The translations under genes were made by a program, and so were the position numbers. A stretch of 64,000 nt of DNA. Origin: a virus. The notes under the pieces were generated by a model that saw nothing but the letters and a program-made list of their open reading frames with translations, made no database searches and was not told where the DNA came from. Location of the stretch: positions 186,001-250,000 of IMG/VR virus record IMGVR_UViG_3300017991_000048. One strand, written 5' to 3'. This document shows, piece by piece, positions 1-16,599 of this stretch (the stretch's first letter is position 1; each line of letters begins with the position of its first letter).

Positions 1-747
1 AGTTTCTATAAGTTTGTCCACAGCATTTTCCTTAATCACATCTTTCGGAATGTGACGTCCTGGCCATGTTTTCTCAAGCTCGATCAAATCTTCGTATAGA
101 GGGAAGTAATCTACACCATTATTTTCCTCGGCCAATTCCTTACACGCTGTTACCAATATAGCTTTCGATTCGGGTGTGGTTGCAGTGTTCACTGGAGCAA
201 GAGGGGATACCATCAATATGAACGATGTATCGGCTTTCACTGATCGGAGGGTGTTTATTGAATCTTGTATATAACTTTTGCATTCTGGCACCGATAACAT
301 TTTCGCTGTGGTATTGGCTTTCTTAAACCCTCTAGCTGGCACTTGCCAAAAACAATCATCAGCGTCTTGCCAAACTTCTGCCATACCGAAAATGAATATT
401 ATGTTTTGAGCATCAAACATATGCCGCAAAACATTATTGTAAAGCCATCGCCTACGGTCAAAGAAATGCTCTTTTGTGAACGGCATGAGGCCAGCTAATT
501 GTATATCAATATACTGCCCCAAGTAGCTGCGGCAAAACTTTTCATAATCTTCATCGTGAACGACTCCGCCTCGATGATAAATTTTCGTCGCTATCTCTAT
601 TTCACAGTAAATACCGGGCGGAGAATATTTATTGAAGTCGCCTGGGGTTTTCACTACTTTGAGAACCCCATCTAAATGGTTTTCCATCTGTCTTGCTATA
701 CAACTCCCGAACAAAAATAGCTTTGTGTCTTGAAAATCAGTAGCCAT
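1..747 (-). CDS. GSCFA-family protein, C-terminus cut by window edge
   Basis: The reading frame opens with ATG at 747 and stays open for 249 codons to the window edge, so the C-terminus is missing. Near the N-terminus it carries FGSC (residues 13-16), followed by a downstream block with VSPLAP and DYFPLYE. Both match the GSCFA family, a set of SGNH/GDSL-like proteins usually found near polysaccharide and surface-glycan genes. FGSC would carry the nucleophilic serine if the family acts as an esterase or acyl-transfer enzyme. Its start overlaps the end of the sulfotransferase gene by 11 bases, so it is probably co-translated as the last visible gene of the surface-modification cassette. Family assignment is by motif recognition. 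Substrate and reaction are unknown. Confidence 0.72.
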   Translation of the reverse strand, partial: MATDFQDTKLFLFGSCIARQMENHLDGVLKVVKTPGDFNKYSPPGIYCEIEIATKIYHRGGVVHDEDYEKFCRSYLGQYIDIQLAGLMPFTKEHFFDRRRWLYNNVLRHMFDAQNIIFIFGMAEVWQDADDCFWQVPARGFKKANTTAKMLSVPECKSYIQDSINTLRSVKADTSFILMVSPLAPVNTATTPESKAILVTACKELAEENNGVDYFPLYEDLIELEKTWPGRHIPKDVIKENAVDKLIET

Positions 748-1414
748 ACTTCTTCGCCAGTGTTTTCAGGCCCTCTTGTAGTGGCGCACTCAGACCGCTC
801 AAACTCAGCCCCTCAACAGTGTTTTTCAGATCAGGGTCTGAGTGCCACCATCCTATATTTACAGTGGTCGGGGTACTATCTAATGCTTTCCTTGCGTCAT
901 CCAATGATCTATGGTGCCCTACCAAATCAGCTATCTTTGTCAGTTTTTCAGCACTAAGAGTTTCTAATTGGTATCTAAAATGTGCGTGGTCTTCTATTTG
1001 TTTGTTCCAATCCAGCCAAAACGCGACGGATTTAGATACCTCGTCAGTGTAGTTATGAACACCAAGCGCGTACTCTTCAATCACATCGATGTACCCCTTA
1101 TTTCGTGGGTTCCCGGTAAATAGTTCTCTGCCTACCAGCGACTTTAAAGCTGCCATTGGGTGTCGCACTTGGTGGATAACGATCACGTCTTTCGGAAGTA
1201 CGGGTAGAAAAGGAACGGCGAGCCAAGACGAATCTCCAAGGGTATCAGGCAGAGAAAGGTCCGCACCGGCCTCTAAAGAACCTCTGAACCGCCCTCGTGC
1301 CTCTCCAAGCCCAAACACCGACTCATGCCCACAAGGTATACCAAGATTTGTGAGAAGTTTTGCTATATATCCTGTGCCGCTTCTAGGCACAGCGCATATC
1401 AGAAACCGTTTCAT
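737..1414 (-). CDS. P-loop sulfotransferase-like protein
   Basis: The protein begins MKRFLICAVPRSGTGY. PRSGTGY is the 5'-phosphosulfate-binding loop of PAPS-dependent sulfotransferases. VRHPMAALKS at about residues 85-95 resembles the 3'-phosphate-binding R-x-P...S element. At 225 residues it is about the size of bacterial and phage sulfotransferase domains. I chose ATG at 1414, which overlaps the TGA of the radical SAM gene as ATGA. A TTG at 1435 would extend the protein by 7 residues but has no better ribosome site. The likely role is transfer of sulfate from PAPS to a sugar or a protein tyrosine. The acceptor is unknown, but the neighbouring glycosyltransferases favour a glycan. Confidence 0.7.
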   Translation of the reverse strand: MKRFLICAVPRSGTGYIAKLLTNLGIPCGHESVFGLGEARGRFRGSLEAGADLSLPDTLGDSSWLAVPFLPVLPKDVIVIHQVRHPMAALKSLVGRELFTGNPRNKGYIDVIEEYALGVHNYTDEVSKSVAFWLDWNKQIEDHAHFRYQLETLSAEKLTKIADLVGHHRSLDDARKALDSTPTTVNIGWWHSDPDLKNTVEGLSLSGLSAPLQEGLKTLAKKYGY

Positions 1415-2133
1415 CCGACTGGACAGATCGCGCAATAAGGGTACTTTTTCCGACCACCGGGTTTCCCTAAAGTTAGTATTATCTCCTGGTGCTTTTCGCT
1501 ATACCACAAATCTTCTACTGAAGTGTCTGAGACACTGCCCAAATCAAACTCGCCAAGAGGGTCTTGACAGCACAATCGCATCTTGCCGTCAAATCCGATG
1601 ATCATGTTTTGCCGACATCCAGCAAAGCAAGGCTTCGAACTTTGACGCCTGATCGCCTCATTCAAAGTCTCTCTGGGGTCATAATGAGTCAGATGATGTA
1701 CACTTCTAAAGGCTACTTTAGCCGACTTGAACAGGCCACCAATGTATTTTCTACGCTTAAAAGCTGCTTGGTCATTTAAAGAGATATTCAATTGATGGAA
1801 ATATGGGTCAATACTCTCCGCTATTTCTGGAGTCAGAATATCTCCATTGCTACATGCTACCACCGGGTCAAAGCCCTTTTCCATTGCATACTTTGCGAAA
1901 TCTGGAAGACGTTTATCAAACAATGGCTCATTGAAGAACTGTAGGACAACCATCTTCCGGTGTCCCATGTCCCAAGCCTGATCTAAGATGTCATACACCA
2001 TCTCAGATGGCATCTCTCCTTTCAGCTTCTCACGCTGAGGGTGGGTCTGACGCAAACAAGTCGGGCACTTTCTGTTACAAACAGATTGCGTTTCAATAAC
2101 TAAGCGTGGAAATTCTCTAATCTTTCGTTCCAT
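1411..2133 (-). CDS. radical SAM protein with SPASM-like C-terminus
   Basis: The protein has CNRKCPTC (CX3CX2C) near residues 19-26, the cysteines that bind the [4Fe-4S] cluster of radical SAM enzymes. The C-terminal third has CFAGC, LCCQD and YPYCAICP, a cysteine pattern like SPASM/twitch domains that hold extra iron-sulfur clusters. IGFDGKMRLCCQD and GSVSDTSVEDLW are typical of SPASM proteins that modify peptides or sugars. At 240 residues the barrel is short. ATG at 2133 overlaps the upstream stop as TGATG, and a GTG at 2136 is the alternative. Substrate unknown. Neighbours suggest a modified sugar or glycopeptide. Confidence 0.78.
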   Translation of the reverse strand: MERKIREFPRLVIETQSVCNRKCPTCLRQTHPQREKLKGEMPSEMVYDILDQAWDMGHRKMVVLQFFNEPLFDKRLPDFAKYAMEKGFDPVVACSNGDILTPEIAESIDPYFHQLNISLNDQAAFKRRKYIGGLFKSAKVAFRSVHHLTHYDPRETLNEAIRRQSSKPCFAGCRQNMIIGFDGKMRLCCQDPLGEFDLGSVSDTSVEDLWYSEKHQEIILTLGKPGGRKKYPYCAICPVG

Positions 2134-2699
2134 CACTCACCCTTTAGCCACATAACAAAACTGCCGCCTATAGGCATACTATCAACCACCAAGCCGTCGT
2201 AGAATTTCAAAAGGTTTTCCGTGGTCACCTCTTCCCACTCTACACAACCCGGCTCGTACCTTAAGTCTTCCCGTACTTTCCCAAACGTGTGCATATCATC
2301 AACCACAACTATATCATTATGTTTCCGCTCTTTGAATAATTCCAACTCTTTCCACAAAGGAAAGGGAGACTTTTGTATCGCCGGTTTCATTAGACAATAA
2401 TGTGCATCTAAATAGGCAAACACCGGAACGTCAGAGTACACGTCTCTCAACAAGAAGGGTAAGAACGTTGTAGTGCTCCCTCGATGTGACCTTACATTCT
2501 GAAGACCGCCAATCTTTTTCTGTGCAACTTGCCACATACCTTGATCAAGCTCTATAGTTTCGACCGTCTCGAAATGTTTAGCTGCAATTTCTGTCTGAGC
2601 GCCTGTTCCTGTCCCAGTCTCGATAAAGACCTTTATATCTGAATAGTCTTTTTGGCGTTCAGCGATGATACTAAAATGTTTGTCGTTCCAACGTCCCAT
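2133..2699 (-). CDS. class I SAM methyltransferase-fold protein
   Basis: VFIETGTGTGAQT (about residues 24-36) is the glycine-rich SAM-binding motif I of Rossmann-type methyltransferases, and VETIELD, 13 residues further on, fits motif II with an acidic residue for the ribose. VFAYLDAHY and DIVVVDDMHTFG fit the later strands, as in the FkbM/TylF-like group found in glycan operons. I start it at ATG 2699, preceded by GGAG at seven-base spacing and five bases after the upstream stop. An open frame continues upstream but has weaker start signals. It probably O- or N-methylates a sugar or a related small group. The acceptor is not visible. Confidence 0.68.
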   Translation of the reverse strand: MGRWNDKHFSIIAERQKDYSDIKVFIETGTGTGAQTEIAAKHFETVETIELDQGMWQVAQKKIGGLQNVRSHRGSTTTFLPFLLRDVYSDVPVFAYLDAHYCLMKPAIQKSPFPLWKELELFKERKHNDIVVVDDMHTFGKVREDLRYEPGCVEWEEVTTENLLKFYDGLVVDSMPIGGSFVMWLKGE

Positions 2700-2703
2700 G
2701 ATT

Positions 2704-4758
2704 TTACTCCGCAACTGAAAAATGCTTCTGATGGCCAATATATCTACGTACACGTCTGTTTTTGGTTCTTCCGTACTCTTCCGCTACCTCCATCTCGTGC
2801 CAGCGGTGCGTGTCATCAAAAATGAGAGGCACGTCATGTCTGAATAAATCGAGGTGATGTAAAAACCCTCTTCGCCCTCCGTCTTGTTCGGTCAAAGCAT
2901 CCAAAATAATCAGGCTGTACTCTTCCGGTATCTTTATCTTATTTACATCGAACCAAATATGATCGCCATAGTCCTTGAGAGGCGCGTGAATAAAAGTCGC
3001 GTCTTTGGCAAGCATCCATTTCTCATGACACTCTATGGAAACGACATTATAAAATTTGCACAGTTCGGTTGTCCCGATTCCAGTGCCTATCTCTATAATG
3101 GTAGATCCACGAGGGATATTTTCGAGTATCCAATAGAGACACTCCTCTGAAAGCGCGAAGTTGTTGAGATTGCACTTGGCCACCTCTGGTGGAAACTCAC
3201 CAATCTTATACCTCAAAAACTCTTGTTCAGCTTTGTCAGCTTTTGCGAGATTTTCCTTACCCTCAGCAAAGGCTCTATCTTGTGGAGTAATGGATGAACC
3301 CCACCCAGGCTCAGCTTCATGGAAATCAAAGTCAGGCCAATAGGGGCTGTTCTCACCTCCCCTTCTGATTAAATCCAAGCAACAGATAAGCTTTCTCACA
3401 TTTTTAACTGTCACATACAGGCCAAATGGTGAATAGCCCTGATTGTAGATCTTTTGAGTCACGCAGAAATGCCAATCTGATAACATTGGCAAGTTTTTGT
3501 TAAAGTTTTCAAGTTCCCCGTAGACGCTTTTATCAAAAGCCATCAAACACCCTGTAGCGCCTTTGAATTGCACCAGATCATCTATGGTTTTGAAATACCT
3601 TATGTGAGTAAGACGTCCTTCAATAAGGAAGAGTAGATGCTTTTGGCCTTTGTTCATGCCTTCAATGAAAGGGGTGTGCCAGTTGGGGTGTACCGGAAAA
3701 GTGTCATCGTCGAACCAAAACTGATAATCACAGTCTTTGAGCATTTGGAAAGCTTTATGCTTGGAGTGTGAAACCCCCATTCTCTCCTCGTTATAAACAT
3801 AATCAATGTAGCCCAACCTCTCACAGAACTTTTCTTTGTGTCGGGCTTCCGCTGGCTTTGAGTTGTCATCTATTACGACTACCTTAGTTTTATAGTCTGT
3901 AGGCAAGAATTTGTTTAGGTACCTCAACGCATGTTTAAACACTCTCAACCGATTTCTAGTGGTATAGCTTATTCCAATTTTCATATGCTTGTCCTCTATA
4001 TCCTTTATTTGCTTGCGAAGACGTTTGCTACAGTCGCCGTAGGTCGCCCCGATAAGCTTTGTGAAAGCTTCATACGATGCTCGTTTTCCCTCAGGAGACT
4101 TCTTACGCTCTGCTAAAGTGTAAGCTGATCGATGCCGTTGTATTTTACAATCGGCGGGGACGCCGTCTAAATCAAAAGAATATATATACCCACCTGGATT
4201 TGCGATAGTGGCACACCACCAAATGGTATGACCTCGATCATACATCTTTGTAGTAAGGCCGAAATGCCAAACTCCGTAGATGCCAAACCCTTCGTTAAAC
4301 CCTTCGATATCCTTATACGTGTCCTTGTGGAAAGTCATTAGACACGCAGTGACCCCATTAAATACCTCAAGACCGTCCACACGTTTTACGCATTTGAAGT
4401 TTAACCATTTACGCATATAGAGCAGATGTTTTTGCCCTTTATCCATTTCGTCGATAAACGGCTCATGCCACCCCTCACAAATTGGATAACAATCATCGTC
4501 AAACCAAAACTGGTAATCACAGTCCTTGAGTAACTGAAAAGCCTTGTGCTTGGAATGTGGTATACCTAACCACTCTTCGTTGTACGCATATTCAAAACCA
4601 CGGCTGAGTTCAGCGTTTCTGTCACGGTGTACGCTATCACTGTTGTCATCAATAACTACAACTTTTGCGCCTTGAGGTAAAAACTCGCGCACCTTCGTTA
4701 ATGAATATTCAAGAGCATCAGGGCGGTTCCTGGTAGTATAACTTATGCCAATCTTCAT
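2704..4758 (-). CDS. glycosyltransferase-glycosyltransferase-methyltransferase fusion
   Basis: The 684-residue protein has three domains. Residues 1-258 and 259 to about 510 are two related GT-A (GT2-like) glycosyltransferases. Each opens with MKIGISYTTRNR, then has VIDDNS and FWFDDD, the acidic cluster that would hold nucleotide-sugar and metal (DDD at 87-89 in the first copy). From about 520 to the end is a SAM-fold domain with IIEIGTGIGT and IILDA. The second copy begins at an internal ATG (3984) preceded by CAT, almost the same context as the true start, which suggests that two tandem genes became fused. ATG at 4758 overlaps the previous stop as ATGA. The fold is well supported. Donor and acceptor sugars are unknown. 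Confidence 0.75.
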   Translation of the reverse strand: MKIGISYTTRNRPDALEYSLTKVREFLPQGAKVVVIDDNSDSVHRDRNAELSRGFEYAYNEEWLGIPHSKHKAFQLLKDCDYQFWFDDDCYPICEGWHEPFIDEMDKGQKHLLYMRKWLNFKCVKRVDGLEVFNGVTACLMTFHKDTYKDIEGFNEGFGIYGVWHFGLTTKMYDRGHTIWWCATIANPGGYIYSFDLDGVPADCKIQRHRSAYTLAERKKSPEGKRASYEAFTKLIGATYGDCSKRLRKQIKDIEDKHMKIGISYTTRNRLRVFKHALRYLNKFLPTDYKTKVVVIDDNSKPAEARHKEKFCERLGYIDYVYNEERMGVSHSKHKAFQMLKDCDYQFWFDDDTFPVHPNWHTPFIEGMNKGQKHLLFLIEGRLTHIRYFKTIDDLVQFKGATGCLMAFDKSVYGELENFNKNLPMLSDWHFCVTQKIYNQGYSPFGLYVTVKNVRKLICCLDLIRRGGENSPYWPDFDFHEAEPGWGSSITPQDRAFAEGKENLAKADKAEQEFLRYKIGEFPPEVAKCNLNNFALSEECLYWILENIPRGSTIIEIGTGIGTTELCKFYNVVSIECHEKWMLAKDATFIHAPLKDYGDHIWFDVNKIKIPEEYSLIILDALTEQDGGRRGFLHHLDLFRHDVPLIFDDTHRWHEMEVAEEYGRTKNRRVRRYIGHQKHFSVAE

Positions 4759-5534
4759 ATACTACCCTCTTTTATTTTTTGGGTATCTAGTCGAAAACGC
4801 TGGACACACGAGGCATAACCTTCGCCCACAAACCTTTTAAATGCCTCATGCGCCTCCGTTCTGTTTTTCCAGTTATCAGTGCGATCCTTTTTTGTGAAAG
4901 ATGAACCGCGCCGTTTTGCCTTATAGTCAGCAGGACATCCATTAATGTCAAAAGCATGGATGTAACTTCCAGCGTCAGCAACGGTAGCCACCCACAAAGC
5001 CGAATGACCTTTATCATACATTTTTGTGGTCAGCGCAAAATGCCACATTCCATAAAGAGTAAACCCTTCATGAAACCCCTCAACATCTACATAAGTGTCT
5101 TTATGGAACGTTAGTAGACATCCCGTACAACCGGAGAATCTTTCGAGGTTACCAATGCGAGCTACACATTCAAACTTCATCCATTTGTGCATATAGAGCA
5201 AATGCTTTTGATCACCTTCCATTGCATCAATAAATGGCAGATGCCAGCCTTCGCACATAGGGTAACAATCATCATCAAACCAGAACTGGTAATCGCAATC
5301 TTTAAGCCTCTGAAAGCCTACATTCTTAGAGTGCGGGACACCTAATCGCTTTTCGTTGAACACATACTCAAAGCCATGGCTAAGGTCTGCATTTTTATTA
5401 CGGAATATATCATCGCTATTATCGTCAACAATTACGACTTTTGCCTCTGGGGGCAAAAATTGACGCATCTTCGTTAATACATATTCAAGAGCCTCAGGGC
5501 GGTTCCGGGTAGTATAACTGATTCCTATGCTCAT
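4755..5534 (-). CDS. GT-A (GT2-like) glycosyltransferase, single domain
   Basis: This 259-residue protein is plainly a paralogue of the two N-terminal domains of the next gene. It shares the opening IGISYTTRNRP, the VDDNSDD strand, FWFDDDCYP, LLYMHKW, GCLLTFHKDTY, and WHFALTTKMYDKGH. DDNS and DDD would position the nucleotide-sugar and a divalent metal. The gene makes three such domains in a row in the genome, probably from repeated tandem duplication. It starts with ATG at 5534, overlapping the stop of the upstream microprotein as ATGA, and ends in an ATGA overlap with the fusion gene. It is presumably cytosolic, with no signal peptide or membrane segment. Confidence 0.75.
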   Translation of the reverse strand: MSIGISYTTRNRPEALEYVLTKMRQFLPPEAKVVIVDDNSDDIFRNKNADLSHGFEYVFNEKRLGVPHSKNVGFQRLKDCDYQFWFDDDCYPMCEGWHLPFIDAMEGDQKHLLYMHKWMKFECVARIGNLERFSGCTGCLLTFHKDTYVDVEGFHEGFTLYGMWHFALTTKMYDKGHSALWVATVADAGSYIHAFDINGCPADYKAKRRGSSFTKKDRTDNWKNRTEAHEAFKRFVGEGYASCVQRFRLDTQKIKEGSI

Positions 5535-5650
5535 GTCTCTTTACTCTCAACAAGAAAAGATGTACCGGCCCAAGAGAAATTCGCATAGGGTAAGAAGTTG
5601 AACTGGGGGTGCTGCTTGTCCTTCTTAAATAATGCCAACTTTTCTGCCAT
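5531..5650 (-). CDS. 39-residue microprotein in glycan cassette
   Basis: This small frame runs from ATG at 5650 to TGA at 5531. It fills the space between two recognised genes exactly. The ATG lies one base after the TAA of the upstream gene, and the stop overlaps the ATG of the following glycosyltransferase as ATGA. AGG lies eight bases before the start. The product begins MAEKLALFKKDKQHPQ and ends FLVESKET, with an aromatic centre (FNFLPYANFSW). I recognise no family. It may be a small partner of the neighbouring enzymes, a remnant of a larger gene, or mainly a device for translational coupling. Confidence 0.5.
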   Translation of the reverse strand: MAEKLALFKKDKQHPQFNFLPYANFSWAGTSFLVESKET

Positions 5651-5651
5651 T

Positions 5652-6524
5652 TTAGCGACCTAAAGTTCCAGCAGTGTACAACTCACTGGCATCAAGATGA
5701 CTATCCTCTAAGCAATAGGTTTCGTTGATCTCAAAAAGCCGTCCGAGATAAGCCTCTACACCATGAGACGACGGGTGTACGTTATACCACTCCTTTGAGA
5801 ACAACTTCGCATGGTTTACCCACCAAAATGTTCCAGAGTAATGCCACATAGAATCCAACGGTAAAGGGATTCTCGGTTCACAAATTTGGAAAGAACCGGC
5901 ACACGCAAACTGTGAAAGAACCGCTTCAATTAGCTCCATGTTGTGTAGACACAACTCATACATCTTGTCCCGCCAAACTCTGACGGCATCCAAAACAACC
6001 GGGTCATCGTGTGTCACGCCTTTTGTGTGAGCAAAAAATGTGATCTCGTCTTCACGTTCAGATTTAAGCCGTGCTAACGCCTCCGTAAAGCCAACAACTT
6101 CCCGCAGTTCTGGTACGTTGGTGCAACGTATAAATTCAGCTTCAAAAGTGAACGCAGCTTCAACTGTAGCCGGGTCCACTATGCCCTCTCCTGTCATTAT
6201 TATTACAATACGCCGTCCATTGAATATATCTGCATACCCGTTTATTTGCTCAATATTTCTTTTCCACTCATTAGACTTTTGGAAGGCACCGCAGCTATAT
6301 ATAAGGTTTCGCTTCATTAAGGCCGAAGACTCTGTGCGCGGGACTTCAACCTCTGGCCGAACACACGTTAGCCTCTCTATTATTACTGCCTTTCGTTTGA
6401 AGCAACGTTCACAAACTTGAACGCTCTTAGCGTTGGGTTTTATCTTCTTCTCGTAAGTATGCCCACAAGCTTCACATTCAAAGCGAGCATTGGCAGCATA
6501 TAAATCTATGTCATGCAGCGGCAC
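5652..6524 (-). CDS. zinc ribbon plus putative glycosyltransferase-like domain
   Basis: The N-terminus has two CxxC knuckles (C17/C20 and C38/C41), a zinc ribbon. The rest (about residues 70-290) has RIVIIMTGEG, FFAHTKGV, a W-R-x-K-M-Y helix and HYSGTFWWVN. I associate this set with a little-studied family of glycosyltransferase-like proteins in viruses and bacteria, but no textbook catalytic signature is present. The start is GTG at 6524, supported by GAGGA five bases upstream. An in-frame stop lies just before it. It is the first gene of the cassette, 22 bases after the LamG-like pair. The zinc ribbon could bind nucleic acid or a partner protein. The enzymatic role is an inference from two short motifs and context. 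Confidence 0.5.
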   Translation of the reverse strand: MPLHDIDLYAANARFECEACGHTYEKKIKPNAKSVQVCERCFKRKAVIIERLTCVRPEVEVPRTESSALMKRNLIYSCGAFQKSNEWKRNIEQINGYADIFNGRRIVIIMTGEGIVDPATVEAAFTFEAEFIRCTNVPELREVVGFTEALARLKSEREDEITFFAHTKGVTHDDPVVLDAVRVWRDKMYELCLHNMELIEAVLSQFACAGSFQICEPRIPLPLDSMWHYSGTFWWVNHAKLFSKEWYNVHPSSHGVEAYLGRLFEINETYCLEDSHLDASELYTAGTLGR

Positions 6525-6546: not shown

Positions 6547-7365
6547 CTATCGGACGCCGAAATTCGTGCCTATATCAACTACATCTAACGATCCTGACAG
6601 GGAAAAGTTGATGCCGCCGACAGCCCCTACAGAGGTCCACGTTGCAGGGGCGCTGCTCGTTCCGACATCCATTGCTTGTTTCACTGACCAAACGTGGTCA
6701 GGGACCGTACCCCCCAGTTTACTCGTTGTCGGAAGATCCTTAAGAATTTCAACATCTTGTCTCAACAAAAATAACTCATCCTGAGTCATAGCCTCAGTGT
6801 GATAAAAGAAGCCTACAATCCAGTCAAAAGTGGAACCATAACTATCCGCTGGAGTTCCCCTTCCTAGAAAAAGATCTTGGCTGGACGGGTTCCCTGCTGT
6901 CCAGGCTGGATTGCCATGATCACGACTATTAATATGAAAAGCGTCTCCAGGGTATAGATCATCATCCACAACTATCGCTGTAAGTTGCAGTTCACAAGCA
7001 ATTATATGGTGAGCAGGTGATACGAATGTAGGGTCGCTAAAATCTACGGGGTCGCTGGACGCTGTTACAGCTTCAACGTCCGCTGTGTATAGACCTGTAA
7101 GTCCCGGAGGAACCGCGCCAAGGTTCGCAGCACGGTAGCCTAAACTGGCATTGTCATGGCAATCAAACAGAGCCGCAGGGGTTGCTTCAAAGTTCGTATG
7201 CTTTCGAACCAAATGAAGCAACCCGACTGTAAACTGCGTGTCAGCCCCCCGGATAGTCGGATCTGCTGTTGAGTAATAGTTGGCGAGATACCCGGTTGAC
7301 GGATGAGGCCTAAGACCCTTATACCCGGCAACTCGTGTTTTCTCTGGGACGGGGATGTAAGTCAT
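6547..7365 (-). CDS. virion surface protein, lectin-like, second tandem copy
   Basis: This is one of two adjacent 272-residue proteins that align along their whole length: both begin MT-I-PV and share VAGYKGL, TGY-ANYY, LFDCHD, DAFHINSR, YGSTFDWIVGFFYHT, MTQDELF-LRQD-EILKDLP and a C-terminal DVVDIGT-FGVR. The element IVGFFYHTEAMTQDEL resembles the strand and helix that close LamG/concanavalin-like jelly rolls, so a carbohydrate-binding or decorative role on the virion is plausible. The position between fibre genes and the glycan cassette agrees with this. No catalytic residues were recognised. It starts two bases after the stop of the other copy. Confidence 0.55.
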   Translation of the reverse strand: MTYIPVPEKTRVAGYKGLRPHPSTGYLANYYSTADPTIRGADTQFTVGLLHLVRKHTNFEATPAALFDCHDNASLGYRAANLGAVPPGLTGLYTADVEAVTASSDPVDFSDPTFVSPAHHIIACELQLTAIVVDDDLYPGDAFHINSRDHGNPAWTAGNPSSQDLFLGRGTPADSYGSTFDWIVGFFYHTEAMTQDELFLLRQDVEILKDLPTTSKLGGTVPDHVWSVKQAMDVGTSSAPATWTSVGAVGGINFSLSGSLDVVDIGTNFGVR

Positions 7366-7367
7366 CT

Positions 7368-8186
7368 CTATCGGACCCCAAAAGCTGTTCCAATATCCAC
7401 CACATCAAGTGCGCCGGTTAGACTGAACGCCAAACCGCCTATCGCACCCAAAGAGATCCATGTTGAAGGAGCGCTCCCGACCCCTACATCCATCGCTTGT
7501 TTCACTGACCAAACATGAGCGGGAACAATACCTCCCAATGGGCTTGACGTTGGAAGATCTTTCAGAATCTCGATGTCCTGTCTGAGTGTAAACAATTCAT
7601 CCTGCGTCATAGCGTCAGTATGATAAAAAAAGCCTACAATCCAGTCAAAAGTTGATCCATACCCGTCAGTCGGAGTGCCTCGCCCCAAGTAAAGATTTTC
7701 GGCTGACGGGTTGCCAGCCGACCAAATCGGCTCTCCGTGGTTTCGGCTGTTTATATGAAAAGCGTCTCCAGGAGTAGGGTCGTCGTCCACAATAATCGCC
7801 GTAAGTTGTAACTCGCAAGCATACAAATGATGAGCAGGGGAAGAAAACGCTGGATCACTTATGTCCACCGGATCAGCATTCTGGTTTACAGCCTCTACGT
7901 CTGATGAATAATACCCGTTCATTCCTCCCGGCACCGCCGCTCCAATAAGATGAGCGCGGTAACCGAAAAAGGTATCGTGGCAATCAAATAAAGCGGACGG
8001 CACTGGCTCATAATTGGTTTGCTTTCTAACTAAATGGAGCATCCCCACTGTAAACTTAGTTTCCAGTCCGTGCAACGGCGGATCAGCATTGACATAATAA
8101 TTAGCCATGTACCCCGTGGTGGGGTTCGGCTTCAGACCTTTGTACCCGGCAACTCGTGTCGATTCCGTTACTGGTATATGAGTCAT
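7368..8186 (-). CDS. virion surface protein, lectin-like, first tandem copy
   Basis: This is the upstream member of the duplicated pair, 272 residues. Compared with its sister, divergence is spread through the protein, with the loop after LFDCHD and the segment YSSDVEAVNQNADPV most different. The conserved core, including DWIVGFFYHTDAMTQDEL, is retained. Equal length and only two bases between the two genes point to a tandem duplication kept by selection. ATG at 8186 is preceded by GGGAG, and the stop of the fibre gene lies ten bases upstream. A host-binding or head/tail decoration role is inferred from context only. Confidence 0.55.
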   Translation of the reverse strand: MTHIPVTESTRVAGYKGLKPNPTTGYMANYYVNADPPLHGLETKFTVGMLHLVRKQTNYEPVPSALFDCHDTFFGYRAHLIGAAVPGGMNGYYSSDVEAVNQNADPVDISDPAFSSPAHHLYACELQLTAIIVDDDPTPGDAFHINSRNHGEPIWSAGNPSAENLYLGRGTPTDGYGSTFDWIVGFFYHTDAMTQDELFTLRQDIEILKDLPTSSPLGGIVPAHVWSVKQAMDVGVGSAPSTWISLGAIGGLAFSLTGALDVVDIGTAFGVR

Positions 8187-8196
8187 TTACATCTCC

Positions 8197-9852
8197 CTAA
8201 ATAACGTGCCAAGCGCCATTTATGAACTGGAAGTCTACCGCGACGAGGCCAATGCCAATGGTGAAGCTTGCCACCAAAGCTCCAGCTACCGGGTCTTCTA
8301 TATTATTACCGTTACCGGAAATGGTTATTACAGTTGTGTTTGTCGTAACATTCTTAACAGAGAAATGATCACCGCTACTGGGTGTTGCCGGGGCATTAAT
8401 AGTAAACGTGCCGCCGCTAGGATCATAAGCTTCTCTATAGCCGATCTTTGCGGTGCCTGTTGTGGTACGCACGGCACTTGGTTGCAGTTCCCCTACGTAA
8501 CGCCACCCGTTATAAGCAGCTATTCGTAATAGTCCTTGAACCTGAGCCGGGTGATCCAAGTCTGTAACCATAAGACCACCGAAAGCGACATCCGTGGGAT
8601 CGTCGTCTTGCGGTACGATACGCAATGCCGGGTAAGCAGGGTTGGTGAAATCGCCTTCGGCCTCTACGCCTATGCCTGTTGCGGTACTACCCTTGACACC
8701 ATATCTGACACCTGTTCCATAGACTCCTATGCTACTCGCCCCAGTGCCTATACCATGGACACCATGAAAACCTGTGCCCTGGACACCATAGCCTATTGAT
8801 CCACCAGCTACACCTTCAACGCCTGGAGTATTACCACTCGCTCCGCCTGTACCTTTGACACCAATACCAGTGGTGCCACCACCTTGTCCTTCAACACCAG
8901 TACCATTGCCTGTAGTACCGCCTAATCCGTAAACGCCCTGGCTTGCAGGAGTTGGTGCCGGGTCTGCAAAATCACCGCCGCCTATGACACCAATTCCGTT
9001 ACTGCCACCGCCCCTACCTTTGACTCCGGTGCCCGCTGCTAGGCCGCGCCCTTCAACACCGACTTTATTACTCGCGCCCTGGCCGAAAACACCCTGACCG
9101 TCAGCCGTGGGGCTAGGGACTCCTCCGCTTCCCCCAATAACACCAATACCAAGGCTGGCACCGCCTGCGCCTATGACTCCAGTACCGTTACCAGCGGATT
9201 CACCTAAAATAGCATTATACCCAGATCCGCATGTGGCGTACACGGCTCTGGCGGTTGTCGATTGTGCCCGCACACCGATGCCAGCACCAGTACCAACGCC
9301 TTGCACACCTATGCCGTTAGTTCCGCCTGTGCCCTTGACGCCAACGCCGTTAGACCCGCCGCCCGTGCCTTCAACACCAGATCCGGTACCAGCACCGATT
9401 CCTTCAACACCGATACCATTTGTAACACCGCCTGTACCTTTCAGTCCGGTGGAATTGCTGCTGCCGCCTGTACCCTCAACTGCAATATTCGCGTCATCAG
9501 GCGTAAAAGTCTGTTTCTTAGTCCAGGTGTTCGCAACATCTAACTGAACGCCGCCTGCAATTGACACCTGAGTCTTGCCACCAACATCAGCCGCTGTGAC
9601 ACCAGGACCCACGAAATTCATAGCGGATCGTTGAGTTAACGGGGTGCCTTCATCCTCAACTGTAGTGTACCCACCAGCTATGGGGGTTTGCCATTCATAT
9701 TCAGTAGCGCTGGTAGCTGTGGGAACCTGCCCTGCTGTGGGAGGGGCAGCGGTTTTACTGGATACCGGATCTCCAGTGGTGGCTAATTCGGTAGCACCAT
9801 ACTGTCCGGGATCGGGTTGTTCTTTACTGGCCTGATTATAGCGTGTGGTCAT
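8197..9852 (-). CDS. glycine-repeat tail fibre protein
   Basis: The protein has an N-terminal attachment part (residues 1 to about 110) with NTWTKKQTFT, then roughly 270 residues of short repeats of the type GTGG-x-NGIGV-x-G, and a C-terminal domain (NGWRYVG..., GTFTINAP, FINGAWHV) like those closing phage fibres. Such GV-x-G-x-G repeats are expected to form a long thin trimeric beta structure. The ATG at 9852 has GGGAG eight bases upstream. An in-frame ATG at 9870 lacks a ribosome site. It shares the NTW-KKQT module and repeat type with the 11559-14018 gene. It is a likely host-recognition fibre. Which part of the tail it sits on is not shown. Confidence 0.65.
   Translation of the reverse strand: MTTRYNQASKEQPDPGQYGATELATTGDPVSSKTAAPPTAGQVPTATSATEYEWQTPIAGGYTTVEDEGTPLTQRSAMNFVGPGVTAADVGGKTQVSIAGGVQLDVANTWTKKQTFTPDDANIAVEGTGGSSNSTGLKGTGGVTNGIGVEGIGAGTGSGVEGTGGGSNGVGVKGTGGTNGIGVQGVGTGAGIGVRAQSTTARAVYATCGSGYNAILGESAGNGTGVIGAGGASLGIGVIGGSGGVPSPTADGQGVFGQGASNKVGVEGRGLAAGTGVKGRGGGSNGIGVIGGGDFADPAPTPASQGVYGLGGTTGNGTGVEGQGGGTTGIGVKGTGGASGNTPGVEGVAGGSIGYGVQGTGFHGVHGIGTGASSIGVYGTGVRYGVKGSTATGIGVEAEGDFTNPAYPALRIVPQDDDPTDVAFGGLMVTDLDHPAQVQGLLRIAAYNGWRYVGELQPSAVRTTTGTAKIGYREAYDPSGGTFTINAPATPSSGDHFSVKNVTTNTTVITISGNGNNIEDPVAGALVASFTIGIGLVAVDFQFINGAWHVI
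8660..9490 (-). repeat. coding repeat array, GV-x-G-x-G type
   Basis: This is an in-frame array of short glycine/valine repeats with variants of GTGG, NGIGV and GVKG, with spacers of similar length. At DNA level, on the plus strand, the units read as recurring ACACC/ACCG(T/C)C blocks. Repeat number could change by recombination and alter fibre length. Confidence 0.7.
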
Positions 9853-9894
9853 GTTATCACTCCCACACATAGGGAATAATAAATGGAATTCCGC

Positions 9895-10314
9895 TTAAAT
9901 CTGGGCAGATTCTAATGAACTGTTATCAGGGTTGAAAGTTATTCGGTTAACCCGCATGAAGGAATCACCGGTCAAAACGCCCCGATCGACGTGAATTAGC
10001 TCATAATTAGACGCCTGAAGCCCCACTAAAAGCACCTCGTGGGCCGCTTCTGGCTTCCCTTGGCCGCACGTAAAAAAGTCCACCGCCGCGTAATTGTGTT
10101 CAGGCCAAGTGTGGATAGATAAATGGGATTCCTCGATAACCACCACACCGCTGACGCCTTGGGGCTTAAAAGGGTGGAACACAGAGGCTACAACCTTACA
10201 GTTTGCGGCGACGGCAGCCTGTTCCATTAGATTCTGAATCTGAGGGATATCGTTAAGTAAGGATTTATTACATCCTATGTACTCGACCAGAAGATGTCTG
10301 CCCCGCGTATCCAA
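9895..10314 (-). CDS. speD: S-adenosylmethionine decarboxylase proenzyme (SpeD)
   Basis: This 139-residue protein has the signature ESHLSIHTWPE. S63 would self-cleave to form the pyruvoyl cofactor, H68 and C83 (in FFTCG) are the processing and proton-transfer residues, and their spacing equals that of the small bacterial class (Thermotoga numbering). F49, W70 and E72, which I recall as ligand contacts in that class, are also present. The enzyme would make decarboxylated AdoMet for spermidine synthesis in the host cytosol. The start is TTG at 10314 with GGAG nearby and an in-frame stop two codons upstream. It lies inside the virion-protein run, with no aminopropyltransferase in the window. Some relatives decarboxylate ornithine or arginine, so the substrate should be treated as likely rather than certain. 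Confidence 0.9.
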   Translation of the reverse strand: MDTRGRHLLVEYIGCNKSLLNDIPQIQNLMEQAAVAANCKVVASVFHPFKPQGVSGVVVIEESHLSIHTWPEHNYAAVDFFTCGQGKPEAAHEVLLVGLQASNYELIHVDRGVLTGDSFMRVNRITFNPDNSSLESAQI

Positions 10315-11558: not shown

Positions 11559-14018
11559 CTAGGGGTATGGCCAGAGGCTCGGAGTCTGGGTTCCAAACAC
11601 AATAACTTCGATGGTAATGGCCACAACCGAAAGATCGATGGGTGTGGCTAGACTTGCTAAGAGACTGAACGCGGAAACATCAAAACTCCCATTAGCTTTA
11701 TTCAATGTTACAGTGCTATAAGCCCCACCAGCCGCGCTCTCTACACCATGAGCAACTGCATAAGCTGTGCTATCCATTCCCGATCCAAACGTAAATGTCA
11801 GCCTGTTATTAGCTCCAGCATAAGCAACGCTACCTATATTAAACCCATTACGGATAGTCGGACCACCACCACCGCACTCAATGAGCGCCCACATCTTAGG
11901 GATACTTGATCCAGCCAGAGTGTTCCCGAAACCCTGAGTCGGAAGAGGATTACAAGCAACATCCGATCCATCACCCCCGGCCCAAAAACCCATGACACCA
12001 CCAACTCCAAGTGCGTAACTGTAATTCTGAGCATATGTATGATTAAAAGCGCCTCCAATTCCAGTCTCAGCTTTGCCAGCTACACCGGGTCCTAAACCAT
12101 GGTGAAAACCATAAATCCCGGCCTTGTTCTGTTGGGCACCACCACTGTTACGCCTACATTCCCCGTATATACCGTGATGCCCTCTGTTGCCAAGATTGCC
12201 TGACTGTGCATAGATGCCCATATTCTGAGTGGACTGAGCGTGAAGGGCGACTCCAGCAGGAGCTGTATAAGCGGTAGTAGTAGGCGAGTATGCGTAGAGC
12301 GCAGTACCACCACCAGTATATGTAATAGCTTGAATACCTTTTCCTGCCTGCGTCGTACCACAGACGCCAACACCCGCATCGTTTCGACCATACACCCCAA
12401 AAGCCGCAACATCGTAGGCCATCCCGAAAACGCCATAGCCAACACCCGCAACGTCATTCTTTCCGTAAACCCCAACCATGTCAGCCGAATGCGAAAGACC
12501 TAAGATTCCAGTGTTCTTGGCGGACTCGGCATAAATCCCATATCTATCAGTGCCATAAAAATAACCGCCGTCAGTACCCCGGAAAATTCCACCGTGCCCC
12601 ACATATAGATCTACTGTAATCGCCCCGTTATTAGCGTCTGGTAGCGCCCCCAACGGAGAACCTGCCTTTACCGCCGTCGCGCTCACATACTGCGTTATAG
12701 TGTACAACCCATCATTGCCGCTACCACTTCCGTTGATCTCAACATTAAACCCGACATGCCCTGCGACAAAAGAAGGAGTACCAACGGTAATCAGCATATC
12801 CGGACCATCAGCAGTGAGATCGGCAGTGGTGGATAACTGTTTTGGTCCGCCACCTATACCGATCGTACCCGCGTTTTCTGATTCTGTTACAAGAGACTCT
12901 GTAGCGCCTTCGCCATAAAAAACGCCGCCTGCTCCTTCGACAGTTGGAAAAGCTACGGGCGGTCCAGAGTTTGCTGCGCCAAAGACGCCACACCCTACTC
13001 CTGGTCCTGCTTCACCAACTACTCCGGGCTTACCAGTATCACCGCCCCCAAAAACTCCAACACCTCCCATAGTTCCTGGTGCCCAAACAGGAGAAGCCGC
13101 GCCAGAAAAGAACCCGCCTGGACCAGTTAAACCTAAACCAACAACGCCAGCACCGCCTGAAAAAGTTGCCCAGTGGTCCGCTGCTCCGTCGCCCCAGAAG
13201 ACACCGCCCACACCTACTACAGTTGGAGGGGGAAACGGCATAGTTCCCCCTATCCCCCACACGCCCATTTTAGCCGTAACTGGAAGAAGTCCAGTCGCCG
13301 CACCGACAACTCCAATTCCTGGTTCAGCAGTTGTAGCACCTCCGTCTCCCTGTGCGGCAATACCAATGGCCGGGAACCCCAATCCAGGGTTAGACGCAAT
13401 TGATGTAATTCCGGTTACGTTAGCCGCAGCCGCTCCATTGGCGAATGCTTGAATGCCTACCTCTGTCCCTCTTCCAAATACACCCGCCTTCGATGTAGTT
13501 CCTATGCCAACGACACCCGCGCCGTCAGGCCCGGTCCCGCCAACTCCCATTACGCCTGAGTTATTAAAGCCTACTACAGGAGAAGGTTCGGTAGCGCCAA
13601 CGCCCCAGAAGACACCGCCAGTGCCCTCAACAGTAGGGGAGCCAACGGTTTGTGACCCAAACACGCCTACTTTAGATCCTCTGGCGGAAAGGGCTACATC
13701 ATCACCGGTTGCTGTTATAGTTTGTTTACCGCCCCAAGTGTTGTCTCTGGAGTCGAGCATCAAGTTGATGAAATCAGTGATGTCTGTCACCTGAGTCATC
13801 GTGGGGTCAGCGCCCAGGCTTATATTGGTGCCAGCTACTGCCGCCCCACCTATGGCGGTTGCCATGTGAGCATTTACAGGATCAGTAATATGGGCTTGTA
13901 AAGCCGCGTCTGAGCCACCACCGGCTGGAAAGAGCAAAGCACTTGCAGGGACCGTACCCCCTGGCAAACGACCGGGACCGGGTTGAACAACTGTTACTGG
14001 ATCTCTTGAAGATGGCAT
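11559..14018 (-). CDS. long glycine-repeat tail fibre protein
   Basis: Residues 1 to about 110 form an attachment part with DITDFINLMLDSRDNTWGGKQTIT, related to that of the 8197-9852 gene. The middle is a run of GVFG/GVVG/GVYG repeats with longer spacers, broken near residue 400 by a beta module (GLYTITQYVSATAVK) that also occurs in other virion genes here. The C-terminal 150 residues are a distinct tip domain (FGSGMDSTAYAV, IEVIVFGT). ATG at 14018 has GGAG seven bases upstream. The two related fibre genes on either side of speD suggest alternative or cooperating receptor-binding fibres. Confidence 0.65.
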   Translation of the reverse strand: MPSSRDPVTVVQPGPGRLPGGTVPASALLFPAGGGSDAALQAHITDPVNAHMATAIGGAAVAGTNISLGADPTMTQVTDITDFINLMLDSRDNTWGGKQTITATGDDVALSARGSKVGVFGSQTVGSPTVEGTGGVFWGVGATEPSPVVGFNNSGVMGVGGTGPDGAGVVGIGTTSKAGVFGRGTEVGIQAFANGAAAANVTGITSIASNPGLGFPAIGIAAQGDGGATTAEPGIGVVGAATGLLPVTAKMGVWGIGGTMPFPPPTVVGVGGVFWGDGAADHWATFSGGAGVVGLGLTGPGGFFSGAASPVWAPGTMGGVGVFGGGDTGKPGVVGEAGPGVGCGVFGAANSGPPVAFPTVEGAGGVFYGEGATESLVTESENAGTIGIGGGPKQLSTTADLTADGPDMLITVGTPSFVAGHVGFNVEINGSGSGNDGLYTITQYVSATAVKAGSPLGALPDANNGAITVDLYVGHGGIFRGTDGGYFYGTDRYGIYAESAKNTGILGLSHSADMVGVYGKNDVAGVGYGVFGMAYDVAAFGVYGRNDAGVGVCGTTQAGKGIQAITYTGGGTALYAYSPTTTAYTAPAGVALHAQSTQNMGIYAQSGNLGNRGHHGIYGECRRNSGGAQQNKAGIYGFHHGLGPGVAGKAETGIGGAFNHTYAQNYSYALGVGGVMGFWAGGDGSDVACNPLPTQGFGNTLAGSSIPKMWALIECGGGGPTIRNGFNIGSVAYAGANNRLTFTFGSGMDSTAYAVAHGVESAAGGAYSTVTLNKANGSFDVSAFSLLASLATPIDLSVVAITIEVIVFGTQTPSLWPYP
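12060..13690 (-). repeat. coding repeat array, GV-(F/Y/V)-G type
   Basis: This in-frame array of degenerate GV-F/Y/V-G repeats is separated by 15 to 30 residue spacers, longer and less regular than in the 8197-9852 gene. One unrelated beta module interrupts it at about 12605-12840. It is most likely a shaft of a trimeric fibre. Confidence 0.6.
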
Positions 14019-14028
14019 ACCCTAACTC

Positions 14029-16599
14029 CTACGTCTGTCTCTTGTTGAGTAAGTTGCCTTTGAGTCTAAATACACTCGCGGTGGTCGTATTGTTATTTAA
14101 ATCTGCATCAAAAAAGACACCGTTAGTTTCATCAAAGAGAGCGTACCGAATAAGCAATATAAGCACCAACTGCCCTTTGTAACCTAACGGGGTGTCCGCC
14201 GCTAATTCCGCAAGCACGGGAAGAATATCTTTGTGCCTGTCTGGATTACTTAGATCCTGAGCATAAGCGTTTGGTATATAGCCAGCGGGAACCGTCTTGA
14301 AATATGTCCGCCCTTCAACGTCAACATCACCCAAACCCCGTGTAAACTCCAAAGATTCCGGGTTGGCTACCATTGGAATATAGACCGGCAAATGTAATAA
14401 ACCAGTTTCAGCGTTGAAGTCAGCTACAGAGACTTCCGCTCGCGCCGACAGTTCAGATTCCCCTGAATAGGTATGCAAGTTACTTGGGAAAACCCCTCCG
14501 GTTTGAACATAAGCCGCCGAGAAAGGATAGCCTTCGTCCTGTGACCCGGAACCCGTTGTAAGAGCAAACATACTCTTGTTGGTTATCTTTGGAACAACAG
14601 TTAGTGTCCCGCTGAGCAGCGCATTACGGGCTGTCTGAGAAACTGCCGTCCGAAAATAAATTGTCATCTGCTCATCGTTTTGAGGCAGCGGTCGTCGGGC
14701 TGTGTAATCAACCTGCACAGTGTCTCCCGGAATAGTAGGTACTGCCAGGGTGATAACGATGCCAGAACTGTCCAAGGTGTAGGCGGCTGGAGCGGCATTA
14801 ACCAAAACGGAGATAATACTCTCGGCTCGTTCTGGGAGATAAACCGTCACACCTCCCACTTCAGTATCCCCTGCCACGATGAGAGTCAGAGGGACTGTTT
14901 CGTACTCAAGCTCAACCTCTCGATGTGGATAATCTAACGCTTGGTTGGCGAAAGCACTAAATGATACAGGAGGGGCTGCCGGTAATTGCGCTGGATTATT
15001 TACATAATAGCTGCCTGCCCCAAAATCATCAGTAGGAGTGTGAGACAAGCCCATACCCGTGGGGTAGCCCACAAGAAGCGTCACGTACAGAGGCTCATTG
15101 GTCAAGGCAGGGATCGCAGGCGGCAGAATTGTAAGGGTCATCGTCAATGGTGTGATAGGAGCCGCGCCCAAGCCGGTGACATTATAGAGTGGTACTTGAG
15201 CCGTTGAAGAACCAGGAGCCCCTACCCATTGCGCCCTTACTATATCCAAGAAACGTACATCAGCAGGAGCACGAGAAGCCCAATTAAATGCTGGATACGG
15301 ATAAACAGGGAGTGCGGTTGGATCGATTACAACCACATCCCCTGGTGCCCATCCGGGACCAGGAGCAGGTATTTCGACAGTAACCAACTCAAAAACTGAC
15401 CGATCCGAAAATCGTCTGCGAACTGCATCGAACTGTCCAGCGAAGTAACCAGCAGTGGTATCTCCAGTGGTAATCCCGTCGCCTGGAAGAACACCAATCT
15501 CATTGGCCATAAAGACAGTGGTGCCATTGTACCCACCGCCGCTTGGCGAAGTGGTGCCGATTTCTGAACGCAAAGTGTTATCGAGTAAGAAATTGGTGTT
15601 CTTTTCTAACAGTTCTGACAATGACCAGCCGCTAGGACTAACACCCGACCTAAGATCCACAAGATCTTCGGCTACAATCATGTCGTAAAACAGACCGTCA
15701 GGGCGGTCGGAGGGTCCAGGGGAAGCCACACCGCCGTTATGATTATCCAAACGAGCAAAAGCGTTGGTATTACGCCTGAACACCCCAAACAATGGAAGGG
15801 CGTACATATACCCATCAACTGTGTCCAAGGTGTTAGCCGGGTTTCCATCTCCCGCAATCCATAGTCCAGGATCGCCGTTGGCAGACTGGTTTACATATGC
15901 AAATGCTGTTGGGGCTCCATCCGGTGTCAGAGCATCCGGTGGGACGGTGTTCGCCACGACTATGGGGTCGTCAAGAGCGTAAGGATACGCAAAAAGATCC
16001 ACACCCTGTATAACCCGGAGTCGATATTGAATCTGCACACGCTTCGTTGTCTCGGCTCCGACATTGGTATCCAAAATGTCATCAGAATAGTTAAGGACCA
16101 AATCATTGGCCGGGTCGGTCTTGACGTTACCCTCTTGCCAGATACGTCCTGTTGCCGACTTGCCATCCGTGTCAGGAGAAGCGGAAATAAGTTTACGCCA
16201 AACTTCCAAGAGAACTACATCGGTACGGAGAGCACCCACGCCTGCTGGACTGGCTCCAAGATCCACCTCATTATGCCCTGTCGCGTTTGTATGGCGGAGT
16301 TTGACCAGCCAGCCGTTAACATGAGCAAGAATATCGTTGGGGATCTCAACATAATTGGCTGTGGCACTAGGGGCAAAAATAGCTCCAACTGAATCAGAAG
16401 TGTTAACAAAGTCGTTCGACAACCAACCTGACGGCATGGCGCGTCTCAAGTTGGCTTGGGCTGCACCTCCGTCCACGTCTTGGAGAAGATTATTCTCCTT
16501 GTCGAGAATAGGCTTACCGGATTGGTATACTACCGTCTCCCAAGCTCTGCCTTCGGGAACGTCGTAACCGCTAACGCCGGGACCAAAATCTTTTGTCAT
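14029..16599 (-). CDS. large virion structural protein
   Basis: This 856-residue protein has an N-terminal block WETVVYQSGKPILDKENNL, which I associate with tail or baseplate proteins of large phages. The rest is beta-rich (VYLPERAESIISVLVNAAP, TIYFRTAVSQTA). A GESELSA segment (about residue 710) recalls repeats in the 18517-23691 gene. Near the C-terminus, GYKGQLVLILLIRYALFDE forms a hydrophobic strand-helix. ATG at 16599 has GGAG eight bases upstream. No enzymatic motif. A baseplate-periphery or fibre-connector role is inferred from its place between the baseplate and fibre genes. Confidence 0.5.
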   Translation of the reverse strand: MTKDFGPGVSGYDVPEGRAWETVVYQSGKPILDKENNLLQDVDGGAAQANLRRAMPSGWLSNDFVNTSDSVGAIFAPSATANYVEIPNDILAHVNGWLVKLRHTNATGHNEVDLGASPAGVGALRTDVVLLEVWRKLISASPDTDGKSATGRIWQEGNVKTDPANDLVLNYSDDILDTNVGAETTKRVQIQYRLRVIQGVDLFAYPYALDDPIVVANTVPPDALTPDGAPTAFAYVNQSANGDPGLWIAGDGNPANTLDTVDGYMYALPLFGVFRRNTNAFARLDNHNGGVASPGPSDRPDGLFYDMIVAEDLVDLRSGVSPSGWSLSELLEKNTNFLLDNTLRSEIGTTSPSGGGYNGTTVFMANEIGVLPGDGITTGDTTAGYFAGQFDAVRRRFSDRSVFELVTVEIPAPGPGWAPGDVVVIDPTALPVYPYPAFNWASRAPADVRFLDIVRAQWVGAPGSSTAQVPLYNVTGLGAAPITPLTMTLTILPPAIPALTNEPLYVTLLVGYPTGMGLSHTPTDDFGAGSYYVNNPAQLPAAPPVSFSAFANQALDYPHREVELEYETVPLTLIVAGDTEVGGVTVYLPERAESIISVLVNAAPAAYTLDSSGIVITLAVPTIPGDTVQVDYTARRPLPQNDEQMTIYFRTAVSQTARNALLSGTLTVVPKITNKSMFALTTGSGSQDEGYPFSAAYVQTGGVFPSNLHTYSGESELSARAEVSVADFNAETGLLHLPVYIPMVANPESLEFTRGLGDVDVEGRTYFKTVPAGYIPNAYAQDLSNPDRHKDILPVLAELAADTPLGYKGQLVLILLIRYALFDETNGVFFDADLNNNTTTASVFRLKGNLLNKRQT

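Follow-up and report, generated by a model that had tools for sequence, protein, structure and literature searches.

A fibre-linked cassette of glycosyltransferases and sugar-decorating enzymes that may glycosylate the particle of a 398-kb virus

What does a virus modify when it carries glycosyltransferase (GT), methyltransferase, radical S-adenosylmethionine (SAM) and sulfotransferase genes directly behind its fibre-like genes? GTs encoded near phage fibres are usually explained by modification of the host envelope or of DNA. We address the question for a sugar cassette of the 398,071-bp virus in IMG/VR record IMGVR_UViG_3300017991_000048, starting from a window, i.e., the whole 64,000-nucleotide (nt) stretch at positions 186001-250000 of that record, where the cassette starts at the first base. 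A gene order found three times in this genome, cassettes devoid of membrane enzymes and a zinc-ribbon GT-like family (znGT) placed beside phage tails and extracellular contractile injection systems (eCIS) point to the particle itself as the likely substrate. At a rough probability of 0.55, we favor the reading that a modified-sugar glycan is assembled and decorated by the cassette, within the cytoplasm of the host, on fibre or tail proteins that belong to the virion itself.

The cassette is cut by the edge of the window and extends a further 3.7 kb leftward, to genome position 182316 (coordinates marked genome refer to the whole record, all others to the window). In full it comprises 13 tandem genes, all on the - strand: inside the window, in transcription order, znGT, a 39-aa open reading frame (ORF), a GT2, a GT2-GT2-methyltransferase fusion, a methyltransferase, a radical SAM/SPASM protein, a probable sulfotransferase and a GSCFA protein, and beyond the edge Sulfotransfer_4, a 228-aa protein, an RmlC/FdtA-like protein, a short-chain dehydrogenase/reductase (SDR) and, last, RmlD. 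With ATG starts at 1414 and 2699, used in place of the longest ORFs (starts 1435 and 2753), neighbouring genes inside the window overlap by 4-11 nt or stand 1 or 4 nt apart, and all 12 consecutive junctions of the cassette are at most 5 nt. Since 48% of the same-strand junctions genome-wide are equally tight, spacing alone was rejected as evidence; a run of 12 such junctions exceeds the expectation of about 0.03 (0.48^12 over 414 junctions). Promoter and terminator scans returned counts near those of shuffled sequence and thus neither split nor join the fibre-cassette unit. An earlier note, made from the letters of the window, had given the eight genes, their order, strand and tight junctions as we find them, while the true end of the cassette lay outside the window and was not visible to it.

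The same arrangement is seen at three places. Sugar cassettes A, B (the one described above) and C lie at 5.8-9.2, 182-192.5 and 279.6-284.5 kb of the genome, and each abuts fibre-like genes. Cassette A stands directly behind a 272-aa paralogue, itself preceded by a collagen-like gene, so that a member of this 272-aa family immediately precedes A as well as B; cassette C is separated by two small genes from the collagen-like fibre genes that precede it, one of which lies at genome 286112-287776. Each of the three collagen-like genes of the genome adjoins A or C, and genome-wide the GT2, GT4 and above-threshold Methyltransf_25 matches are confined to the cassettes. These two further cassettes, along with the nucleotide-sugar genes past the window edge, strengthen the earlier proposal of a glycan or surface-chemistry cassette tied to fibre genes.

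The cassette enzymes are soluble, and all three cassettes lack a flippase, a polymerase, an initiating membrane GT and any other membrane protein. None of their enzymes has a 19-residue segment scoring above 1.61, against 2.6-2.7 for control flippase and polymerase. This bears on the main rival explanation, a host-directed one, in which the virus alters a glycan on the surface of the infected cell, be it O-antigen, capsule or another, and so excludes other phages. The GT/deoxysugar clusters located among the tail-fibre genes of pelagimyophages (PMC7029224) and the sugar clusters of jumbo cyanophages (PMC7824862) have been read in this way. Surface polysaccharides are typically sulfated, methylated, O-acylated or pyruvylated, and capsule and lipopolysaccharide pathways use RmlD, SDR and RmlC-like proteins. 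Compared with a surface-polysaccharide cluster, GTs and nucleotide-sugar enzymes are present here but the membrane components are absent, although the host could supply them. Co-direction with the fibre-like genes and the tracking of tails and eCIS by the znGT family at the loci examined also speak against an envelope target, which we consider possible, if on balance unlikely, and less favoured than modification of the virion.

By sequence, the znGT family has no Pfam relatives and no convincing PDB match. An AlphaFold model of the cassette's member (predicted local distance difference test, pLDDT, 84; built from 28 homologues) has GfsA, GpgS, DPMS and GnT I as best PDB matches (E 2e-4 to 1e-3), and GTs and RgpF-like proteins are among its matches to viral structures (E down to 1e-10). 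Judged by this model, znGT is a GT-A-fold protein and a putative glycosyltransferase; the earlier label of GT-like zinc-ribbon protein lacks a GT family match but agrees with the modelled fold. A paralogue is located in cassette A (genome 7342-8244, E 6e-41). The zinc ribbon sits at opposite protein ends in the two paralogues, on the C-terminal side in the 7342-8244 copy.

Relatives of znGT were found at 53 viral loci. At about 12 of them, in metagenomic phages, znGT follows tape-measure and minor tail genes (the tape measure was recognised by PHROGs in four and by eye in the others), and several of these tail-linked loci have adjoining methyltransferase, GT2, 2-oxoglutarate (2OG) oxygenase or sulfotransferase genes. 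In another group, znGT stands behind an SDR epimerase. A radical SAM/SPASM gene lies beside znGT at the tail-linked loci L034, L042 and L035 and also at the phage-like bacterial contig L082; with a radical SAM match within 2 kb of viral znGT for 3 of 13 matches versus 1.1 expected (p ~0.08), this clustering is suggestive only. At eight phage loci (L030, L032, L042, L043, L048, L075, L095, L099) the gene just before znGT encodes a CC-rich N-terminal cysteine cluster, and its product is possibly a metal-binding tail-tip protein.

Bacterial genomes carry znGT at 21 loci, and nine of these genomes also have an eCIS_core gene. In eight of the nine, the znGT domain is 4.4-7.4 kb from eCIS_core, the chance of a position within 8 kb being 0.2-0.4% per genome. 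We count this for particle glycosylation because phage tails and eCIS are two kinds of tail-type particle. The eight loci (L084, L086, L089-L094) belong to Burkholderiales and one Nitrospirae metagenome-assembled genome, and several of their eCIS_core proteins carry an Endonuclea_NS_2 domain. In Aquabacterium commune DSM 11901, a gene that combines GT, znGT and methyltransferase parts adjoins eCIS_core. It is tempting to see in the znGT family a glycosylation system for tail-type particles generally. Partnered by radical SAM enzymes of the SPASM type, methyltransferases and 2OG oxygenases, it would decorate the tails or fibres of phages and, when part of a larger protein, eCIS or their cargo; we hold this wider idea to be tentative and rather doubtful.

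The other GTs belong to a known family. PF00535 (GT2) matches lie above the curated cut-off (E 1.2e-13 for the fusion, with two copies, and 5.2e-10), and the three GT2 domains of the cassette are paralogous and closely similar (E 1e-51 to 1e-117). Residues 501-684 of the fusion look methyltransferase-like by eye, with no Pfam match for this C-terminal domain. The GT2 family is present in 391 phage records, for the most part mycobacteriophages, and the cassette members match the StAnnes gp106 family at E 6e-26 to 2e-41. Che8 gp110, a GT, was reported as essential for capsid glycosylation (PMC12363180). Its family neighbours a cassette-type GT2 in StAnnes (gp106/gp109), which has a gp110 orthologue, and in HK542 (gp54/gp55) and the Klebsiella jumbo phage KpLz-2_45 (gp222/gp221), which have gp110 relatives.

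The whole set, which the earlier note proposed to look for elsewhere, did not turn up in other viral contigs, and it is the GT2 and znGT families that recur. Scans of viral contigs with the radical SAM, GSCFA and 228-aa proteins, one at a time, returned no relative, and that with GT2 one partial relative. Among named phages, nothing matched the znGT, 272-aa or 228-aa protein; the 737-1435 protein had no match in phages or plasmids and the radical SAM protein none in plasmids. Its sole "phage" match, MT835743, was discarded as it looks bacterial, with ABC-transporter and V-ATPase-like genes by eye.

Several points weigh against glycosylation of the virion. That virion proteins carry sugar is a prediction from genes, and the pelagimyophage and jumbo-cyanophage clusters cited above were read as O-antigen or envelope modification. 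The GT2, the GT fusion and znGT have no phmmer match to Che8 gp108-110, and TM-scores of the znGT model against PDB are only ~0.4. The two eCIS-side znGT proteins scanned have a length of ~1000 aa and contain Glyco_trans_1_2 and Methyltransf_24 domains, and the role of znGT may differ in such a multi-domain protein. On the acceptor side, the 557-aa protein (8197-9870) and the 272-aa proteins are candidate fibres by composition and position, and a model of the 272-aa protein (pLDDT 32) did not yield a fold; a LamG lectin-like reading of these proteins, made by eye, was dropped on account of this model.

Table 1. Genes of cassette B in transcription order, fibre-like genes and the two other sugar cassettes.
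Feature	Position	Strand	Remark
znGT	5652..6524	-	zinc ribbon C17, C20, C38, C41; modelled GT-A-fold domain
39-aa ORF	5531..5650	-	no relatives found
GT2 glycosyltransferase	4755..5534	-	PHROG 2456/1579 family; DDD motif
GT2-GT2-methyltransferase fusion	2704..4758	-	both GT2 domains akin to 4755-5534, StAnnes gp106 and HK542 gp54
Class I SAM methyltransferase	2133..2699 (or 2753)	-	weak match to sugar methyltransferase CalS10
Radical SAM/SPASM protein	1411..2136	-	CNRKCPTC motif; nearest solved relative BtrN
Probable P-loop sulfotransferase	737..1414 (or 1435)	-	PRSGT loop; under every curated threshold
GSCFA (SGNH-hydrolase clan)	1..747; genome 185986-186747	-	final codons past window edge
Sulfotransfer_4 sulfotransferase	genome 185349-185993	-	E 7e-19; 68.9 bits vs 22.8 cut-off
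228-aa protein	genome 184669-185355	-	no known family
RmlC/FdtA-like	genome 184207-184668	-	PF00908 E 6e-16; RmlC likeness weak
SDR epimerase/dehydratase	genome 183169-184206	-	PF01370 E 8e-34, over its cut-off
RmlD	genome 182316-183167	-	TIGR01214 over its cut-off
272-aa protein	6547..7365	-	22 nt upstream of cassette
Second 272-aa paralogue	7368..8186	-	tandem; 73% identical to 6547-7365
557-aa glycine-rich repeat fibre-like protein	8197..9870	-	candidate acceptor; no PHROG match
819-aa glycine-rich repeat protein	11559..14018	-	C-terminal weak tail-fibre match PHROG 11355, E 7e-5
856-aa protein	14029..16599	-	N-terminus by eye like 1451-aa tail-like protein, genome 174683-179038
Third 272-aa copy	genome 9178-10020		directly upstream of cassette A
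Cassette A	genome 5753-9161		SDR, Methyltransf_24, znGT paralogue, polysaccharide pyruvyl transferase
Cassette C	genome 279573-284484		GT4, two methyltransferases, sulfotransferase-like/methyltransferase fusion, tandem GT2

Which sugar would be attached is suggested by the three genes at the far end of the cassette. The nearest PDB chain to the SDR is 6vo6 (E 1e-30), which we take to be Cj1427, a GDP-heptose C4-dehydrogenase. In Campylobacter jejuni, GDP-heptose is remodelled by a C4-dehydrogenase, a C3/C5-epimerase and a C4-reductase (PMC10680097), the same trio of enzyme classes as the SDR, RmlC-like and RmlD proteins here, although no heptose-making genes were seen. Since the cassette reductase matches RmlD, a dTDP-6-deoxyhexose is equally possible as product type. 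The dTDP-rhamnose set RmlA-D is incomplete: RmlD is there, RmlC is represented by the weak likeness, and E. coli RmlA and RmlB queries had no match in the virus, so that the donor sugar would be host-supplied, with RmlA and RmlB possibly from the host.

Phage GTs can also glycosylate DNA (cited in PMC12619734), and sugar hypermodification of the viral DNA would put the same enzymes to another use. No member of the thymidylate-synthase-type family occurs in the virus record, which leaves no recognisable source of hydroxymethyl-pyrimidine; furthermore, the cassette stands with fibre genes, and sulfotransferases and GSCFA are not expected in such a system. We set this explanation aside as very unlikely.

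As to decoration, the family names of the earlier note held above curated cut-offs for GT2, GSCFA, radical SAM and SPASM, whereas the methyltransferases have weak profile matches and the sulfotransferase it named is sub-threshold. The latter (737-1435) is probably a sulfotransferase, its Sulfotransfer_3 match (E 0.12) being confined to the P-loop. Sulfation, which the note had proposed through that gene, is better founded on the Sulfotransfer_4 gene just beyond the window, which by profile is a sulfotransferase. The GSCFA match (PF08885) has E 6.5e-20 and 72.3 bits against a cut-off of 25; an activity was known for no member of this family as of 2022 (PMC9487903).

The radical SAM protein matches PF04055 (E 2.6e-8) and SPASM PF13186 (E 1.7e-8), both over cut-off. 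Among all PDB chains it aligns with BtrN only, the radical SAM aminocyclitol dehydrogenase of butirosin synthesis (residues 9-238, E 4e-9), which it resembles in size, in the CX3CX2C motif and in a CxxC near the C-terminus. Of the four cysteines that we take to form the second cluster of BtrN, three are aligned. This sequence match, found in a different genetic context, suggests a BtrN-like protein, i.e., a candidate sugar or cyclitol dehydrogenase. BtrN and the weak CalS10 match of the methyltransferase could also fit the synthesis of a small molecule or secreted glycoside, such as an aminocyclitol or antibiotic-like product, as proposed for a second cluster of some jumbo cyanophages (PMC7824862). 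However, scaffold-building, transport and resistance genes were not recognised in the cassette, and a product of this kind leaves the linkage to fibre genes at three places unexplained, so we think it improbable. Even less credit is given to a peptide substrate, be it the 39-aa ORF or one of the repeats in a fibre, on which the radical SAM protein would act and which the GTs would glycosylate. SPASM proteins are frequently peptide-directed, the 39-aa ORF lies within the cassette and the radical SAM protein has partial weak matches to NCBIfam maturases; yet these matches are all far below cut-off and the full-length solved relative is BtrN, while the ORF, being without relatives, has nothing to mark it as a precursor. 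The ribosomal peptide-linked option of the earlier note is accordingly not retained.

For glycosylation of the virion, the following route can be proposed. SDR, RmlC-like and RmlD proteins would remodel a host-made nucleotide sugar of the 6-deoxyhexose or heptose type by C4 oxidation, C3/C5 epimerisation and C4 reduction, and the GT2 enzymes and znGT would transfer this sugar to the products of the fibre-like genes just upstream and extend it there. Methyltransferases and one or two sulfotransferases may then add O-methyl and sulfate groups, the BtrN-like enzyme, acting as a dehydrogenase, a keto group, and GSCFA possibly transfer or remove O-acyl groups. Cassettes A and C would do likewise for the adjoining collagen-like fibres, by pyruvylation and by sulfation and methylation, respectively. 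Gene content and families, shared orientation and spacing, the fibre genes adjoining at three places, the solubility of the enzymes and the recurrence of znGT by tail and eCIS genes are what we observe; from there we infer the acceptor, order of steps, chemistry and identity of the sugar, and also the purpose of the coat, be it receptor choice, shielding or stability.

The fibre-like genes upstream of cassette B extend to 16599 on the same strand, with no gap above 33 nt. An S-adenosylmethionine decarboxylase gene is found within this run (9895-10314, - strand, AdoMet_dc E 2e-38), and the virus has a second AdoMet_dc gene at genome 171524-171964 (E 2e-15). On the other side of the cassette, genome 179201-181540 (+ strand; L002:11201-13540) encodes, on the strand opposite to its neighbours, a lipoprotein-like protein of 779 aa in which cysteine-rich modules are repeated, by eye like secreted Myxococcota proteins.

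The collagen-like fibres of mimivirus and of Bacillus BclA are glycosylated. In cassettes A and C, genes for deoxysugars, methyl-sugars and GTs likewise accompany Gly-X-Thr collagen-like fibres, an analogy only, whereas cassette B adjoins glycine-rich non-collagen fibres. For three mycobacteriophages, namely Che8, Corndog and Myrna, glycosylated virions have been described (Freeman 2023, cited through PMC12363180 and PMC12619734). These share with our virus phage-encoded GTs in a short operon, and the GT2 family neighbours gp110 family members elsewhere; they differ in that the cassette has 13 genes with nucleotide-sugar remodelling, sulfotransferases, radical SAM and GSCFA, lacks a direct gp108-110 homologue, and is a fibre-linked candidate for virion glycosylation. 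GTs, NAD-dependent epimerases, cupin isomerases and methyltransferases are also found in pelagimyophages, there near tail fibres, and in jumbo cyanophages, and the accessible portions of both accounts do not mention sulfotransferases, a BtrN-like radical SAM protein or GSCFA (PMC7029224, PMC7824862).

Fibre-linked glycan clusters and phage virion glycosylation are hence already known. What appears new is the mix with a BtrN-like radical SAM protein, sulfotransferases and GSCFA, the fact that a single phage has three cassettes linked to fibres, and the placement of one GT family at both tails and eCIS, a link that we did not find in the open-access papers searched. If the particle is indeed the substrate, its sugars would be sulfated, methylated, oxidised or pyruvylated, the GSCFA family would gain a context, and virion and eCIS glycosylation would become directly testable; receptor choice by phage and eCIS particles, or their shielding, could then be explained.

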